Below are positions 38,155-59,304 of a stretch of DNA of 64,000 bases, in pieces. Each line of letters starts with the position of its first letter. Positions within the stretch are counted from its first letter, which is position 1. Both the position numbers and the translations under genes were made by a program. The notes under the pieces were generated by a model that made no database searches, had not been told where the DNA came from, and saw only the letters and a program-made list of their open reading frames with translations. The DNA is taken from IMG/VR virus record IMGVR_UViG_3300017917_001336, positions 83,568-147,567 of that record, one strand, 5' to 3'. The DNA is from a virus.

Positions 38155-38928
38155 ATGAGAGCAAAACAATTTTTACCTGAAGCACCGTTAGGCATTAGTC
38201 AAAAACGCCCTTCACGTCAAGGAAGTCGTCCAGAGCGCGGACACGAGCCTGTAGAGCGTTATACTACCACTAAGGAAGAATGGAGCCAAAAGTATAAAAA
38301 TAGCATTAATTGTAGTCACCCTAAAGGTTTTAGCCAAAAGGCTCACTGTGCAGGTAAGAAGAAGCATAACGAATCTGCTGACATGGAAATGACTTGCCCA
38401 GATTGCGGAATGTGTGAAACACACGGCGACCACATGATGGAAGTTAAACAACGTCTTGATGCTAAATGCTGGAAAGGTAAACACAAAGAAGGCACAAAAA
38501 TTAAAGGTGGTGTTCGTGTAAACAACTGTGTACCTAACGAAAGTTTATCAGAAGGTAAAACACAAAAACAAGAAACACCTAAGCCACGTAACTTTGTGGC
38601 AAAGAACGCTATCAATACAGGTGCAGGCGCACACAAAGATAAAAAGAAAGCAGCTAAACAAGGTGATGTTAAGCATAAAGGTAAGATGATGGATCTTGCT
38701 GAAATGGAAGACATTTTAGAAAAAGCAAGTCTTAAACTATGTAAGAGCTCAACACCAGACGAAGATTTAGGTGCTAGTAATCTAGCTTCATGTAAGTCAC
38801 AAGGATTACGTGCCCGTGACGGAAACAAATCGCATAAGTTAGGAAAAACTAAAAAGAGTCGTGTGAAGGTTGGCGGTCACAAGATCAAAGGCAACAAATA
38901 CGGCGGCCCGTTACCTGACTGGAGTTAA
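38155..38928 (+). CDS. basic Cys-rich protein with capsid-targeting-like start, 257 aa
   Basis: The first nine residues MRAKQFLPE followed by A fit the T4 head-protease pattern (L-x-E then A). The rest is Lys-rich with several Cys modules: HPKGFSQKAHCAGKKKH near 57-73, CPDCGMCETHGDH near 80-92, and CWKGKHKEGTKIKGGVRV..NCVPNE near 105-128. The last is shared with the protein at 43685. It looks like a DNA-binding internal head protein, which is an inference. Confidence 0.65.
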   Translation: MRAKQFLPEAPLGISQKRPSRQGSRPERGHEPVERYTTTKEEWSQKYKNSINCSHPKGFSQKAHCAGKKKHNESADMEMTCPDCGMCETHGDHMMEVKQRLDAKCWKGKHKEGTKIKGGVRVNNCVPNESLSEGKTQKQETPKPRNFVAKNAINTGAGAHKDKKKAAKQGDVKHKGKMMDLAEMEDILEKASLKLCKSSTPDEDLGASNLASCKSQGLRARDGNKSHKLGKTKKSRVKVGGHKIKGNKYGGPLPDWS

Positions 38929-38929
38929 G

Positions 38930-40444
38930 ATGCGATTTTCAGAATTTAAAAGATATTTCTTTGAAGCAGATGGAGAGCCGGGATATTACACTATTGGTGA
39001 TAGCCATGCTAAAGGTATTGCCGATGCCGCAGGTCATCCATGGATTAACAGCGCAGTAGGTGGCAGGACCAGTACAAGTCCAGAAATAAGAGCAAAGGTT
39101 CCTACTGTTACTCCAGGTAGTATCGTAGTAGTTGCCGCAGGAGCCAATGACACAGCAAACTCTTATAGAGCATCTGTAGAAAGTGGAAACAAAGTTAAAC
39201 TTGTAGATCCTAAGGTTATTGCTAGTAATGTAGCAGACTTAGTTAACATGGTCAAGGCACAAAAGCCAAAGAAGATTATATTTTTATTGTTTCCAAATGG
39301 CAAAGGAAGAACAAAAGGTAGCGCCAAGTGGTATAACGGAGATTACCAAGAGGATGTTAGGTCAGCTATCAAATCAGCAGTATCTGGTGTAGAAATTATT
39401 GATCAAAGCGGCTACCCGATTGCTCCAGATCAAATACACTCAGATTGGAATGTATATAGCAGATTAGGTAAAGAAATTGTACAACGCAACCCATTAGGTG
39501 GAATTTCAGGTGCACCTGAAACAAAATCAGGAAGAGAAGTAAATCCAATGCTTGCCCGCCGACATCCAGACTGGAATTTTAACAAGACTGGGTCTTCGGG
39601 AAATCCAGACGAACAACTACAGAAAGAAGGCGAAAAGTTCTTTATCGATGTTCCAACAAGTCGCAGAGGAACAGCAGTACGTGATGTACAACAAGCATTA
39701 GAAAAATTAGGGTATAGTGTTGGCCCTCCAGGGCTTGACGGTCTTCGAGGCAAGTATACTATTGCAGCAGTAAGAGCTTTCCAGCGTGACAACCCACCAT
39801 TAGAACAAGACGGTGACCCGGGCCCAGAAACTGTTGCTAAACTAAACGCTATAATTAAAGCTAAACCAGAAAAGTTCAAAGGTCTAGTTAGAAGTAAACC
39901 AAACCAAGTTAAGTCATGGGGTGGTGGCTCTGCTGAAGCAGATGTTGGTGATTTATTAACTGACACAGATGATAATATTGAACAAGCAAGAAAATCAGCC
40001 GAACAGTACCTTGGTCGTAAAATGAGTGACACTGAGTGGACAGCATTACTTAAAGTAACTGCCGCAGAAGAAAATAATACTGAAGCACTTGGTTGGGTAA
40101 TAGGCGCAATTTTAAATCGCGTTAAGCAAGGAAGCTGGGGTGATGATGTTGTATCAGTCTTAACAGCTGGCGGACAGTTTGAACCAGTAACGGGCACTTA
40201 TGACAAAGTGAACAAACGCTGGTTAGGAAAAGGATTACCCGCACTACCAATTCCTAGCGGAACAAAACTTCGTAAGATCTTAACAGGTGCAACGGAATTC
40301 CTTCCAAGTGTACCAAGTGATATTGTTAACTTTACATCAGCTATTGATGCTGCATATAATAAACCTGGTCATAACATTAGTTATAAAAAACAACTGTTAG
40401 ACCGCGGCGGTGTGCGTAAAGGTAACTCTATCTTTGCTAGATAA
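38930..40444 (+). CDS. three-domain cell-wall hydrolase: SGNH + peptidoglycan-binding + SleB-like, 504 aa
   Basis: Start at ATG 38930; TGGAG lies upstream. Residues 1-15 (MRFSEFKRYFFEADG) resemble a capsid-targeting peptide. Residues about 18-200 are an SGNH hydrolase (GDSH with Ser25, GAND, and the Asp-x2-His of DQIHSDW). About 245-310 is a PG-binding-1 repeat (RDVQQALEKLGY...RAFQRDN). About 365-500 resembles SleB/Hydrolase-2 with catalytic-type Glu in AAEENNTEALGWVIGAILNRV. It could remove acetyl groups and then cut the glycan during DNA entry or lysis. Confidence 0.8.
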   Translation: MRFSEFKRYFFEADGEPGYYTIGDSHAKGIADAAGHPWINSAVGGRTSTSPEIRAKVPTVTPGSIVVVAAGANDTANSYRASVESGNKVKLVDPKVIASNVADLVNMVKAQKPKKIIFLLFPNGKGRTKGSAKWYNGDYQEDVRSAIKSAVSGVEIIDQSGYPIAPDQIHSDWNVYSRLGKEIVQRNPLGGISGAPETKSGREVNPMLARRHPDWNFNKTGSSGNPDEQLQKEGEKFFIDVPTSRRGTAVRDVQQALEKLGYSVGPPGLDGLRGKYTIAAVRAFQRDNPPLEQDGDPGPETVAKLNAIIKAKPEKFKGLVRSKPNQVKSWGGGSAEADVGDLLTDTDDNIEQARKSAEQYLGRKMSDTEWTALLKVTAAEENNTEALGWVIGAILNRVKQGSWGDDVVSVLTAGGQFEPVTGTYDKVNKRWLGKGLPALPIPSGTKLRKILTGATEFLPSVPSDIVNFTSAIDAAYNKPGHNISYKKQLLDRGGVRKGNSIFAR

Positions 40445-42757: not shown

Positions 42758-43570
42758 ATGAAGAAGTTTTTAGTTTTGCTAGCACTTGTTTCTACACAAG
42801 TGTTTGCATGGGAGCAACGTGCCCCATTACCCGTACAAAATTGCCAAGTACACAGCCCTTATGGATGGGCACAATCCAGTAGACCAGCAAGTCCAATTTG
42901 CCGAGAAGCATATCTAGTAGCATACGATGCTCCGGTTAAGATTCCGGCTTATGTTGCCTACACACTACTTCCACAAAACGCCTTAGGATGCTTTCCACGT
43001 ACGAACGCATTCGTTGCGGATCAGTCAGTTCCAGGAGGTGCTACTCCTAATGACTACGCAGGCACAGGCTACGACAAAGGACATGCTGCTCCCGATGGTG
43101 ACCTAAGTTGGTCACAGATTGTGGAGTATGAGAGTTTCCTAATGACAAATATGTACCCACAACACGGATCATTAAATCGTGGCATATGGAAACTACTAGA
43201 AACTTCAGTACGTGGGTGGACGGTACAGCAGAATCGTCCGTTTACTATCTACGTGGGGGCATTCTATGGCGCTGGTGATCCATTTATTGGTAATGGAGTT
43301 ATTGTTCCACACGGTTACTATAAAATCGTTATTGACCAACAAACAGGTGCTATTGCTGGCTGGGCATTCCCACATACTAAACCATATGTTAATTTAGGCA
43401 ATGACTTAACTAAGTTTCGTGTGCCGGTAGCACAAATACAACAACAAGCAGGGATCACATTCAAGTATCCTGCTAACGCAAAAGAATTACAACCAGGACA
43501 AGAGTGGCCTGTAGACTATGGAGCATTAACAAATGCTAAACGTGCTAAGTGTGGTAAAAATGCAGAATGA
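42758..43570 (+). CDS. secreted DNA/RNA non-specific endonuclease, 270 aa
   Basis: Start at ATG 42758 (MKKFLVLLALVSTQVFAW), AAGGAC upstream; this is a clear Sec signal peptide with cleavage after VFA. YDKGHAAPDGD is the D-[RK]-G-H motif of beta-beta-alpha-metal nucleases, and TNMYPQHGSLNRGIWKLLE carries the metal-binding Asn. It would act in the periplasm or outside, degrading free nucleic acid, possibly DNA of competing phages. Confidence 0.88.
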   Translation: MKKFLVLLALVSTQVFAWEQRAPLPVQNCQVHSPYGWAQSSRPASPICREAYLVAYDAPVKIPAYVAYTLLPQNALGCFPRTNAFVADQSVPGGATPNDYAGTGYDKGHAAPDGDLSWSQIVEYESFLMTNMYPQHGSLNRGIWKLLETSVRGWTVQQNRPFTIYVGAFYGAGDPFIGNGVIVPHGYYKIVIDQQTGAIAGWAFPHTKPYVNLGNDLTKFRVPVAQIQQQAGITFKYPANAKELQPGQEWPVDYGALTNAKRAKCGKNAE

Positions 43571-43684: not shown

Positions 43685-44119
43685 ATGAGAATGAATGAAG
43701 TTTTAAACGAAGATTGGCAAAAAGTCAACAAGCATGATAAGACAGATGGCATGAGTTCTAAAGCTGTCAAAGCATATCGCAGAGAAAATCCAGGCAGCAA
43801 ATTAAAAACTGCTGTAACTACTAAACCTAGCAAACTTAAAAAAGGATCTAAGTCTGCTAAACGTCGCAAGAGTTTTTGCGCCAGGATGAGTGGTATGAAG
43901 AAAGCACATGCTAGTGCTAAGACTAAGAGAGATCCAGATAGCCCAATCAATAAAGCACTACGTCGTTGGAACTGCGAAAGCATCGAACAATTAGAACAAA
44001 TGGTGGCAGAAGCAGAAAAGACTTTAAGAAACTCAAATCCATGCTGGAAGGGTTACAAGCCAGTTGGCACAAAGAAAAAAGGTGGACGCACAGTTCCTAA
44101 CTGTGTACCAAAAGAGTAA
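43685..44119 (+). CDS. basic protein with capsid-targeting-like start (DUF6321-like), 144 aa
   Basis: Starts MRMNEVLNEDW (fits x-L-x-E) after a strong AGGAGGA. The middle is Lys/Arg/Ser-rich (KLKKGSKSAKRRKSFCARMSGMKKAH...RDPDSPINKALRRWNC), a conserved phage module. The end CWKGYKPVGTKKKGGRTVPNCVPKE matches the module at 38155. It is suited to binding packaged DNA; inference from composition. Confidence 0.65.
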   Translation: MRMNEVLNEDWQKVNKHDKTDGMSSKAVKAYRRENPGSKLKTAVTTKPSKLKKGSKSAKRRKSFCARMSGMKKAHASAKTKRDPDSPINKALRRWNCESIEQLEQMVAEAEKTLRNSNPCWKGYKPVGTKKKGGRTVPNCVPKE

Positions 44120-45607
44120 ATGAGATCTAAAGAGTTTACGCCAGGCAACAGAGATTTAATTATCTTTGATATTGACGATACACTACTTCATACGACTGCT
44201 AAAATTAAAGTCATAGATGCCAACGGCAATATAGTAAGAGATTTAACTAATCAAGAGTTTAACAATTACCAACTCCGCCCAGGCGAGCAATTTGATTTTG
44301 GAGAGTTTCGTAGTGCTGAAAAGTTTCGTCAAGAAAGCCAGCCTATTGTCCCAATGATACGTAAACTCAAAACAATATTATCGCATGCCGGTACTGCTAA
44401 AGTTATCATGCTTACCGCTCGCGCAGATTTTGATAATAAAGAAGAATTCCTACAAACATTTCAAGACTTAGGAATTGACATGAGTCGTGTGCATGTTCAT
44501 CGCGCAGGCAACTTACCTGGCAACGAACCACCAGCGTACAAAAAAGCAGTTTGGGTACGCAAGTATTTAGATACGCAACAGTATGGGCATGTTCGCTTAT
44601 ATGACGACAGCATGAGCAATTTAAAAGTCTTCAAAGAACTAAAAAATGAGTATCCTCAGGTAGACTTTAGAGCATTATATGTAGGCCCTACTGGCAGCAC
44701 ACAAGTAGTCGAAAATCAAGATGATTATGAAATACGCAATTACGAAAAGTTAGATAATATATTGCATGAACTAACAAACTTAGTAATTAAAGGACAAAAG
44801 AAAGACCCTGACAAATACGGCATGGTTGCAGCCGCAGTATTAGATATGGACAACAATCTTGTTCAAGGTATTAATTCTCCAGCATCTGACGGGAAACGTA
44901 AACATGCTGAGCGAGTTGCTATTGATAGATATGTAAAACAATATGGAGATATTCCAGAAGGAAGTATTATCATAACAACTTGTAGTCCGTGCAGTGAGTA
45001 TATGGACGAAAGGTATGGAGAAGATTGCACAGAATTAATTAATCAACACGGTGTTAAAAAAGTCTATGCAGGGTACATGGATCCGACACAAGAGGAAGAA
45101 CATAGAGATTTTAATATTATAGAAACTGAAAACAGTTCTATAAGAGATATGTGTAAAGAGTTTGCTGATACTTTTTTACATTTAAGAGAAAGCTACAAAT
45201 CAATAAAAGAATTTGCACCTGATGACGGATCAGGCGATGAAGAAGAAACATTACTTAAATATGCACGTTTGTGGTATAGAGGTAACTTAGATACACAACA
45301 ACAAGTTGAAAAAGTACTAGCTCGCATGGGTTGGGAAATTGGAGAGCTAGAGTCAGAAGAAGGCGGCGCATTTGTTGTGCAATCTGGAGACGAACACGGC
45401 AATAGTTATATAGGCTTTGCCGCTGACGACTTACTAGAAAACTTTGCAGATGGAAAGAATCCTGGACGCAAAGGTTTAGCAAAGCGTAGTGGAGTGAATT
45501 GTAAAGCAAGTGTTTCTACGCTACGTAATGTAGCAAAAAATAGTAGCGGTGAAAAGCAACGTATGGCACATTGGTGTGCTAATATGAAAAGCGGGAGAAA
45601 GAAATGA
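44120..45607 (+). CDS. HAD phosphatase - nucleotide/nucleoside deaminase fusion, 495 aa
   Basis: The HAD part (about 12-190) has D17-x-D19 (IIFDIDDTL), T99 (MLTAR) and the acidic pair 162-163 (LYDDS). The deaminase part (about 230-345) has H262-A-E264 and C288-x2-C291, the zinc-site pattern of cytidine/dCMP-type deaminases. A third, acidic region and a basic Cys tail (NPGRKGLAKRSGVNCK...HWCANM) follow. The N-terminus MRSKEFTPG is like the capsid-targeting motif. A two-step deaminase/phosphatase on one nucleotide is plausible. Starts directly after the upstream stop. Confidence 0.8.
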   Translation: MRSKEFTPGNRDLIIFDIDDTLLHTTAKIKVIDANGNIVRDLTNQEFNNYQLRPGEQFDFGEFRSAEKFRQESQPIVPMIRKLKTILSHAGTAKVIMLTARADFDNKEEFLQTFQDLGIDMSRVHVHRAGNLPGNEPPAYKKAVWVRKYLDTQQYGHVRLYDDSMSNLKVFKELKNEYPQVDFRALYVGPTGSTQVVENQDDYEIRNYEKLDNILHELTNLVIKGQKKDPDKYGMVAAAVLDMDNNLVQGINSPASDGKRKHAERVAIDRYVKQYGDIPEGSIIITTCSPCSEYMDERYGEDCTELINQHGVKKVYAGYMDPTQEEEHRDFNIIETENSSIRDMCKEFADTFLHLRESYKSIKEFAPDDGSGDEEETLLKYARLWYRGNLDTQQQVEKVLARMGWEIGELESEEGGAFVVQSGDEHGNSYIGFAADDLLENFADGKNPGRKGLAKRSGVNCKASVSTLRNVAKNSSGEKQRMAHWCANMKSGRKK

Positions 45608-45987: not shown

Positions 45988-46223
45988 TGCAAAACGAATT
46001 ATTACAATTAGCAGGATGTGGTTTACCTTGGGCAGAACAACGTGCTCAATATGCTATACAGATTGCAGAAGCTAATCAACGCGGTGAAATATCAGCAGAC
46101 GAAGCTCGTGCGTTGTTAGAGGATTTAGTTAATACTGATAAGTTAAACGAAGAAGCTAGTAATGCAGAAGCTCGCGCTATGCTAGTGTTTGGTGTTACTC
46201 AAATTGCTCGAATGCTTGTTTAA
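45987..46223 (+). CDS. helical protein, 78 aa
   Basis: [48 protein letters not shown]...; helix-rich, ends in hydrophobic [20 protein letters not shown] overlap with the lipoprotein gene suggests they act together. Overlaps the convergent hemA by 29 bases. Confidence 0.65.
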
Positions 46224-47397
46224 GCGCATCTACTAAATCTTCAATCATTCCGTCATCATGAAACGGTGACGGAGCAAATCGTAAACGTTCAGTTCCAACG
46301 TCTACAGTTGGATAGTTAATAGGCTGAACATAAATTCCATGTTCAGCTAACAAATAATCACTCATTGCTTTACACTTTTTAGCATCTCCAACAAGCACAG
46401 GAATGATGTGTGTAGTACTGCATTCCATAACTGTAATTCCTGCTTTATTCAACCGATGTCTTAACTTACGAGCACGTTCTTGATGCTTTTCTCTAACTTC
46501 GTTATGCTCTTTTAAATATTTAATAGCAGCTAATGCACCTGCACAACTAACAGGACTCATAGAAGTAGTAAAAATAAATCCAGCTGCAATACTTCGAATA
46601 CAATCAACTACATCTGCATCGGCAGCAATATAACCACCTTGGACTCCAAACGCTTTGCCAAGTGTTCCGTTGACTATGTCTACTTGATCCTGTAATCCTA
46701 ATTCTTCTAGTTTGCCGGCACCTGTTGCACCGTAAAGTCCTACCGCATGTACTTCATCAATATAAGTGATTGCTTTATACTTTTTAGCTAATTTGCATAT
46801 ATCAGCTATTGGACTAACATCGCCATCCATACTATAAACAGACTCAAACACTACACACGGCGTTTTTCCTTGTGCAAAACTAATTTTTAGCTTCTGTTCT
46901 AGATCATCTAAGTTATTGTGTTCAAAGATAACTTTTGGAGCACGGCTATGATTAATACCAACAATGATACTATTGTGATTGTTGCTGTCGCTAATGAATT
47001 CTAAATTTGGAACAATTTTAGATAGTGCTATAAGTGTCCATTCATTTGCCACATACGCACTTGAAAATAACAATGCACGTTCTTTTTTATGTAGTGTAGA
47101 AAGCTCGTGCTCTAGTGCTTTATGATAGTGACTTGAACCTCCTATATTCCGTGTACCGCCCGAACCAGAGCCTGTGTGGTCTAAGGCTGTGTGCATAGCA
47201 TCTAGCACAACTTTGTGCTGTCCCATGCCAAGGTAATCGTTCGAACACCAGTTTACTATGTTCTTAATGTTATACGGTCCGTACCAGATAGCCGTAGGAA
47301 ACTTGCCTGCTTCACGCACAATGTCGTTAAACACGCGATATTTGCCAGTTTCTTTTAAGTTTTCTAGTAGTTTTTTAAAAGGTTCTTTGTTTATCAT
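46195..47397 (-). CDS. hemA: 5-aminolevulinate synthase (ALAS)
   Basis: Condenses glycine with succinyl-CoA to 5-aminolevulinate, the first step of heme and other tetrapyrroles in the Shemin route. The 400-aa length matches alphaproteobacterial enzymes and the catalytic residues fall at the same numbers as in the Rhodobacter enzyme: PLP-binding Lys248 ([12 protein letters not shown]), Asp214 and His217 (DEVHAVG), Arg21. [10 protein letters not shown] is the ALAS-type signature, separating it from KBL and BioF relatives. It faces against its neighbours and starts 7 nt after a late-type TAAATA. Confidence 0.93.
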
Positions 47398-51470: not shown

Positions 51471-51878
51471 ATGAAAGTAAAAGAACTCCTAAACGAAAGC
51501 CTAGAACGCAAAGACACTTACAGTATCCTATTGGACTTTATACGTTTTGCCGCTGAACACTTAGAACTTACTAAGTTACCTAAGTTTGATTTCTTATTTG
51601 ATACTAAGAAAAGTTTAGAGCACAAGAGCTTTGGTGGATACAGTACCGAAAAGCACATCAACATTACTGTTGTTAATCGTCACATCATGGATGTGTGCCG
51701 CACGTTAGCACATGAGCTTGTACATTTCAAGCAAGATCTAAATGATCAGTTAACGGGCGAAAATCCAGGTGCAACCGGTAGTCCCCAAGAAAATGAAGCC
51801 AACGCAGAAGCCGCAGTTATTATGCGGAACTGGGGTAAGAAACATCCAGATCTGTTTGATAAAGAAAGCATATCATAA
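51471..51878 (+). CDS. small zinc metallopeptidase with capsid-targeting-like start, 135 aa
   Basis: MKVKELLNESLERK fits the L-x-E head-protease pattern. HELVH in CRTLAHELVHFKQDLNDQL supplies two zinc His and the catalytic Glu; ENEANAEAAVIM may give the third ligand. It resembles the small SprT/ImmA-type peptidases. Together with the 667-aa HELNHH protein this makes two putative packaged peptidases. A terminator follows. Confidence 0.75.
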   Translation: MKVKELLNESLERKDTYSILLDFIRFAAEHLELTKLPKFDFLFDTKKSLEHKSFGGYSTEKHINITVVNRHIMDVCRTLAHELVHFKQDLNDQLTGENPGATGSPQENEANAEAAVIMRNWGKKHPDLFDKESIS

Positions 51879-58302: not shown

Positions 58303-59304
58303 ATGCAAATTAGAGAATTTTCAAAACCAGTAACAAGCAAGCAGCTTAACGAAAGTTTAGCACAAAAGTTTGGTTACAGACTTCAGTTAGAGCAGTTTAC
58401 TGACATGCAACTAGAAGATGCACGTAACAAGTTACGTACACGTATTAGTCAAATGGAGTTGTCAGAAAGCTTCGACTCTATTCTTGAAAGCCCAGAGTAC
58501 CAAAAGACTCGCTTAATGTTAGATTGCATTAATCAGGAAATTCTAGAAAGAGAAATGACGCCTGGCGAAAAGAAGAAAGAAAAAGAAATCAAAGCAAAAA
58601 CTGACAAATCAGGGATGAAGCAATCTATGAAAAAACAATACGGTGAAGAAAAAGGCGAAAACGTTTACTTCGCAACCATTCGCAAACGTGCAATGGACGA
58701 ATCAATTCCAGAAAGCTGGATTGACTCAGCAATCAGTCGTTTAGAACTAGGCGAATCAGACAATGAAGAGCTAAAGGCAGAATTAGCAGTACGTTATGAC
58801 ATCAAAGAATCAGTAGCTAGCTGGTTGTTATGTGAAGGCGAAGAAGATAAAGCTGAGACTATCATTGCTACCAAAGATATGGTTGACCGTATTACTAGCT
58901 GGTTGGAAGACGTCGCTGCAATGAAGTCAGAACAGTTATTAGAATTATTAGACTCTATAAGAGATACACAAGGTAGTGACGTAGCACAACGTTACAATGA
59001 CGCAATTAAACCAGCACTTGAATCAGTATATTCAGCATTAGAACAATCACGCGAAGGCTTATCAAATGCTTTAGCTGTTGTTTCAGGCAAAGAAATTTCA
59101 ACAATGGGCTCAGCTACACCAGGCGCAATGGGTGGTGCACCAGCTGACTTAGGTACAGGCGCAGGCGAACTAACTCCTCCAATTGGTGGAGCAGAAGGCG
59201 AAGAAGAACTACCACCTCCAGCAGCAGAAGTAGGCAGAGAAAAACGTGAAAGCGTTGATTACAGCAGACGCTTAGGCATGTTGCTAGCATCAAAAAAAAA
59301 GTAA
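58303..59304 (+). CDS. putative head/scaffold-type structural protein, 333 aa
   Basis: Starts MQIREFSKPVTSKQLNES (M-x-x-R-E-F and L-N-E), consistent with head-protease processing. Strongly helical and acidic from about 30 to 250, with repeated Glu/Lys heptads (EDARNKLRTRISQMELSESFDSILES) and the segment SGMKQSMKKQYGEEKGENVYFATIRKRAMDES. The last 90 residues are Gly/Pro/Ala/Glu-rich. The pattern is like prohead core proteins, but the identity is not certain. Confidence 0.65.
   Translation: MQIREFSKPVTSKQLNESLAQKFGYRLQLEQFTDMQLEDARNKLRTRISQMELSESFDSILESPEYQKTRLMLDCINQEILEREMTPGEKKKEKEIKAKTDKSGMKQSMKKQYGEEKGENVYFATIRKRAMDESIPESWIDSAISRLELGESDNEELKAELAVRYDIKESVASWLLCEGEEDKAETIIATKDMVDRITSWLEDVAAMKSEQLLELLDSIRDTQGSDVAQRYNDAIKPALESVYSALEQSREGLSNALAVVSGKEISTMGSATPGAMGGAPADLGTGAGELTPPIGGAEGEEELPPPAAEVGREKRESVDYSRRLGMLLASKKK

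Follow-up and report, generated by a model that had tools for sequence, protein, structure and literature searches.

Why does a phage join a HAD phosphatase-like domain and a deaminase-like domain in one reading frame, and does the product work as one enzyme? The gene in question lies in a 64,000-nucleotide stretch of viral DNA (the window), which is part of an IMG/VR contig of 147,567 bases. An earlier note on this DNA had proposed a channelled two-step enzyme, perhaps acting at the moment of entry. The reading that we favour, and which sequence comparison makes probable though by no means secure, is that the protein (P0001) is a mosaic polyprotein packaged in the phage head, cut at its module joints and injected. 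What the earlier note had observed was confirmed in part, and its interpretation was supported in part.

The gene and its genomic setting

The reading frame runs from ATG to stop without interruption and encodes 495 amino acids, and the single polypeptide described earlier was recovered with exactly the same coordinates. Its start directly abuts the stop of the ORF at 43685-44119, and there is a 4-nt overlap with the next ORF (45604). The parts of the gene are given below, an arrow marking a predicted cut.

44120..45607, plus strand: whole ORF of P0001, a HAD-deaminase-linker-tail mosaic (ORF calling, module profiles)
44120..44143, plus strand: capsid-targeting-like N-terminus MRSKEFTP, of the form M[RK]xxEF (start pattern)
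44144..44710, plus strand: HAD phosphatase-like domain, residues 9-197, with D17, D19, T99, K142, D162 and D163 (motifs, profiles, model, Foldseek)
44705..44713, plus strand: predicted prohead-protease site VVE198↓N between the HAD and deaminase domains (motif)
44723..45184, plus strand: deaminase-fold domain, residues 202-355, with H262, E264, C291 and C303 (PF00383, model, Foldseek)
45182..45190, plus strand: predicted prohead-protease site LRE357↓S between deaminase and linker, within the low-confidence stretch 356-365 (motif, model)
45200..45424, plus strand: acidic alpha/beta linker module, residues 361-435 (relatives, model)
45431..45439, plus strand: predicted prohead-protease site LLE440↓N between linker and tail, beside the low-confidence stretch 439-449 (motif, model)
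45440..45604, plus strand: widespread basic tail module, residues 441-495, with Cys 461 and 486 (relatives)

The first complete genes of the contig are a gp22-like scaffold gene, so named from its position beside gp23, and the gene of the gp23 major capsid protein (PF07068, E 6.5e-83). Phages with genomes of 350-470 kb, among them Cronobacter phage GAP32, Vibrio phage 2.275.O and Sinorhizobium phage Phosso, have capsid proteins 69-72% identical to this one, so the contig probably covers part of a larger genome. A gp23 match in another contig of 345 kb (L178 in G015) carried one in-frame TAA, possibly an intron or a sequencing error.

A frameshift or an assembly error joining two genes had been named as an outcome that would undo the earlier reading. 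The same HAD-deaminase fusion was found in other phages, on the independent contigs L001, L002, L003, L011 and L016, which rules out such an artefact; the gene is genuine. The isolated phages were searched with whole P0001, its C-terminal 126 aa, the tail alone (E up to 10, low-complexity filtering of this query being possible) and the lone deaminase, and no match was obtained; the search itself worked, because the neighbouring DUF6321 protein matched 530 records there, mostly of cyanophages. No relative was found in the bacterial and archaeal genome contigs searched, and PADLOC made no call for P0001.

The HAD and deaminase domains

The HAD residues pointed out earlier (D17/D19, T99, D162/D163) are present and, like K142, with which they make up HAD motifs I-IV, invariant in 12 relatives. 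Pfam HAD profiles nevertheless scored P0001 under their cut-offs, a PDB sequence search with the HAD profile returned chance matches only, and weak profile similarity was obtained to phrog_415 (polynucleotide-kinase 3'-phosphatase-like). In Foldseek searches of the PDB the domain matched HAD phosphatases, more weakly than the deaminase matched a tRNA deaminase, and the nearest viral models included phosphatases of the polynucleotide-kinase type and a Swiss Army Knife HAD. With these domains it shares the HAD motifs and a weak profile and fold similarity, whereas it lacks the kinase domain of the polynucleotide-kinase type and forms a distinct conserved family.

The second domain matched PF00383 (E 1.3e-12, 47.9 bits, above the gathering cut-off of 25). 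The zinc set had been read as H262, E264, C288 and C291; H262, E264 and C291 held, but position 288 is Leu in 39 and Cys in 17 of the 56 deaminases with a readable motif, and the true partner of C291, which lies in a Pro-Cys pair, is C303, a Cys conserved 11-15 residues further on. The fold and the HAE...PC...C set are those of the RibD/TadA/CDA superfamily, from which the P0001 family differs by its PC-x11-15-C spacing with RYGxSC. The cut-offs of the RibD equivalog TIGR00326 (23.6 bits against 156.35) and of the anti-phage dCTP deaminase NF041025 (14.2 bits against 400) were not reached. The nearest PDB structure in Foldseek was the tRNA deaminase 6l2m (2e-6), and the nearest viral models were uncultured Caudovirales proteins, one of them labelled RibD pyrimidine deaminase.

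An AlphaFold2 model of full P0001, built with 39 sequences, had a mean pLDDT of 79.5, with values below 50 at residues 1-7, 356-365, 414-417, 425-428 and 439-449. The single domains were predicted well; the pTM of 0.46 means that the model gives no confident arrangement of the HAD and deaminase domains.

Independent shuffling of the modules

Among 75 distinct deaminase ORFs of IMG/VR relatives, only 6 were fused to a HAD domain, 25 combined deaminase and tail, and 42 matched the deaminase profile alone, about half of these being bare domains of 161-173 aa. HAD-tail proteins and lone HAD domains were also seen, as were larger mosaics in which the deaminase was joined to a GH19 chitinase domain or to a weak ParB match. 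The linker occurs on unrelated proteins as well (L001, L031, L043, L020), tail modules terminate unrelated proteins too, and ORFs of 62-64 aa exist that hold scarcely more than the N-terminal signal and the tail. When loci were found with the deaminase alone, a HAD lay within about 4 kb in 7 of 80. HAD and deaminase were adjacent, either fused or in neighbouring ORFs, in about 9 distinct contigs, and in the L016 fusion about 400 residues separate them. The four modules of P0001 shuffle independently of one another, and P0001 is one chance combination of interchangeable cassettes.

The acidic region and the basic module recognized earlier are both there; calling the tail Cys-rich was an overstatement, as it has two Cys. 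These are kept or lost as a pair (two in 46 tails, none in 31, one in 0), which suggests a disulfide or a shared ligand. No Pfam family matched the tail or the linker, and Foldseek gave no significant match for the tail.

A protease-type motif at the module junctions

Of the four predicted prohead-protease sites of P0001, IPE280↓G alone lies within the deaminase; each of the other three falls at one of the three module borders. The p of such a placement arising at random is about 2e-4, the borders being HMM edges rounded by eye, and two of the border sites coincide with low-confidence stretches of the model.

Homology break points were taken from all-against-all BLAST, blind to any motif, and the motif was scored within about 8 residues of them. 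In the first protein set, [ILVMF]xE[NSADGQ] was present at 31.8% of 368 break points as against 5.1% of 6,229 control positions (p 4e-53), and the stricter [ILV]xE[NS] at 14.1% as against 0.9%. A second set, picked for being unlike the first, gave 39.1% versus 8.3% and 18.1% versus 0.9%, respectively. About 60-70% of break points had no site, many break points being imprecise. The controls were positions of the same proteins at least 20 residues off the break points and hence more often in folded interiors, so contrasts with Lys at P1 or with shifted spacing are the better control. The signal required Glu at P1 and the one-residue spacing, and it peaked with an aliphatic P3; Lys at P1 was not enriched (0.9x and 1.2x in the two sets), and Asp at P1 was somewhat enriched (1.7x and 2.8x), which indicates that acidic linkers contribute.

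The same preference was seen upstream of the tail: of 68 distinct flanks, 48 had V, L, I or M as the P3 residue, and neither P2 nor any of P4-P7 was biased in this way. Many different codons encode this P3 residue, so selection acts on the amino acid; seams serving as recombination linkers at the DNA level were rejected on this ground in favour of a constraint on the protein. At the C-terminal border of the deaminase, [ILVMF]xE was near 47 of 49 borders, a few of these being chance matches in a conserved FLE/FLD stretch. Within domains, [ILV]xE was depleted in the HAD but not in the deaminase (2.66 versus 2.08 expected). Interior depletion is not general, and folded domains must therefore resist cutting if the sites are cut.

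T4 gp21 cuts after L/I-X-E (PMC9026906), and by its pattern the junction motif [I/L/V]-x-E↓[N/S] is of this T4 prohead-protease type. In gp23 of this contig and of three sisters, L-x-E↓[S/A] is kept just ahead of ATAGATSAGN (or ATSGATSAGN/PTAGATSAGN). A small ORF at 1701-1988 of contig L066 joins a start like that of capsid-targeted proteins, MRIKDLLE, to TATAGATSAGNIAAV, the stretch after the presumed gp23 cut site.

These junctions could also belong to a protein that is packaged and injected whole, with L/I-x-E marking acidic flexible linkers or recombination seams. We consider this unlikely, though it is the strongest of the alternatives. Multidomain injected proteins have been described (Iyer et al. 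2017, PMC5512222): the polyvalent proteins of phages and conjugative elements resemble the P0001 family in their shuffling architectures of two or more unlike domains and in their predicted delivery with DNA as enzymes against the host; the shuffling is clear here as well, and the modest enrichment of Asp at P1 agrees with such linkers. However, the motif must have Glu at P1 and an aliphatic residue at P3 with exactly one residue between them, while its codons vary; this fits the specificity of the protease as well as the site at which gp23 of these phages is processed, and modules delimited by protease sites were not found in the part of PMC5512222 consulted.

The N-terminal signal and the head-maturation machinery

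Cleavage at the junctions, as in the polyprotein reading, would take place in the head. The start of P0001, MRSKEFTPGN, fits M[RK]xx[EQD][FILV], a likeness of pattern rather than proof of targeting. Such capsid-targeting-like (CTS-like) starts marked 10 of the 30 genes of this region but 1 of the 158 in the rest of the contig (p 2.5e-8, an optimistic value because the region was chosen after the starts were seen), and across the loci in 110 of 138 module ORFs versus 172 of 904 other ORFs. The capsid-targeting-like start proposed earlier therefore stood up statistically, but P0001 itself lacks the L/I-x-E cleavage part, which sister cassettes have (e.g. MKVKELLNE↓S). Other genes of the window with starts of a similar kind are:

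38155..38928, plus strand: cassette protein with start MRAKQFLPE↓A and a WSQKYKNSINC..GFSQKAHCAGKK module (start pattern)
38930..40444, plus strand: CTS-like start MRFSEFKRYFFE↓A with GDSL lipase, peptidoglycan-binding and weak cell-wall-hydrolase domains
43685..44119, plus strand: upstream cassette with start MRMNEVLNE↓D, DUF6321 (PF19846) and a CWKGYK..PNC module (Pfam, start pattern)
51471..51878, plus strand: cassette protein with start MKVKELLNE↓S and a HELVH metallopeptidase-like motif, without a Pfam match
58303..59304, plus strand: 333-aa ORF that starts with MQIREF and has L/I/M-x-E[NSADGQ] at eight places along its length

The last of these is possibly a core or scaffold-like protein, as if meant for chopping up, and the product of 38930-40444 may be a wall enzyme delivered by the head or virion. 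The window further holds a DNA/RNA non-specific endonuclease with a signal-peptide-like start (42761-43567; PF01223, 1.2e-37), an AlgH-like protein, here in a phage (40469-41014; PF02622, 4.8e-31), and, on the minus strand, a gene whose product, judged by eye, looks like a PLP enzyme of the 5-aminolevulinate synthase/KBL type (46195-47397).

In T4, the first 10 residues of IPIII are enough for head targeting (PMC9026906), and the T4 Alt start is MELITELFDE. A strict MxxxEF[I/L]xE pattern searched in DNA gave 7 matches in the cassette phages G007, G008 and G015 as against 2 for the reversed control, a weak signal alone, and none in GAP32, CBB, S-CREM2, DSL-LC02, G009, G010 or this contig. All of the other contigs with gp23 that were tested, 5 of 5, had an S77 prohead protease gene, and so did 3 more contigs with the deaminase. 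It was not found on this contig, whose sequence opens with the gp22-like gene; in GAP32 one gene stands between the protease gene and the gp23 that follows, and the corresponding place would fall off the end of this contig.

The adjacent DUF6321 cassette provides a bridge to cultured phages. DSL-LC02, P-TIM68 and S-RIM2 each encode a mosaic DUF6321 protein between their terminase genes; the 665-aa DSL-LC02 protein combines DUF6321 with SINC-PKGFSQ and GYK..PNC modules, both of which occur in this window and its relatives, whereas the three proteins have no HAD or deaminase module. S-CREM2 gp137, encoded at the same genomic place, carries DUF6321 at residues 415-488 and was detected in purified virions by mass spectrometry (4 unique peptides, 4.1% coverage; PMC10665884 Table 3), evidence that concerns a relative of the neighbouring module and not P0001. 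The authors of that study noted that regulatory proteins in their virion list could be carry-over (PMC10665884). Taken with the clustered T4-like N-terminal signal, the prohead-protease-type junctions and the S77 protease of sister contigs, this virion protein supports the earlier suggestion of head targeting and action at entry.

Unpackaged cytoplasmic enzymes of nucleotide metabolism, made in the course of infection, would explain why families of phage dCMP deaminases and of polynucleotide kinases/phosphatases were matched; we regard this as improbable, since the N-terminal signal and the mobile tail are common to cell-wall hydrolases and unrelated proteins, and the scores lie far under the RibD, dCTP-deaminase and CDA equivalog cut-offs.

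A probable head-packaged polyprotein

For P0001 we infer the following course, in a Rak2/GAP32-like giant T4-related phage. The N-terminal capsid-targeting-like sequence would bring the protein into the prohead core, where a T4 gp21-type prohead protease would cut it at the L/I/V-x-E sites of the module junctions. The products, a HAD phosphatase-like and a deaminase-like protein together with a small acidic module and a basic peptide, would be ejected along with the DNA. The HAD-like and deaminase-like parts would thus probably reach the host as separate proteins and not as one fused enzyme; if they are active, their most likely substrates would be nucleotides of the newly infected host or the ends of its nucleic acids. 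In evolution, the junctions would be the seams where cassettes swap.

Least probable of all is the channelled enzyme of the earlier note, in which one chain deaminates and dephosphorylates: both motif sets look intact and the adjacency in about 9 contigs makes some functional link possible, but the domains are separable cassettes that are seldom fused (6/75) or near each other (7/80 loci), stand far apart in L016, have VVE198↓N between them and lack a confident mutual arrangement (pTM 0.46).

The polyprotein reading has partial precedents. T4 IPI-III and Alt, which are processed by gp21 (PMC9026906), share with P0001 a short M-x..E-[FL] N-terminus and L/I-x-E sites, and T4 shares with its phage group a gp21-family protease gene and gp23; the T4 proteins, however, shed terminal propeptides, whereas the sites of P0001 lie between several folded interchangeable modules. 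In phiKZ/SPN3US-like giant phages (PMC10052503), head proteins likewise have cut sites behind x-E motifs, in some of them two or more, but the cuts there remove propeptides (13/14 N-terminal) with A-x-E or S/A-x-E specificity. No description of interchangeable cassettes delimited by prohead-protease sites was found in the open-access papers searched.

Beyond this gene, we lean towards a general system in which giant T4-like freshwater phages and, to some extent, cyanophages build head-delivered effector polyproteins that are swappable at L/I/V-x-E seams and released in the capsid by the maturation protease. If this is true, many annotated 'fusion enzymes' of large phages would sit in the virion as separate proteins, several injected products being made from one gene by the capsid maturation protease, and a CTS-like start with L/I/V-x-E seams would provide a sequence rule for head-delivered effectors of unknown function.
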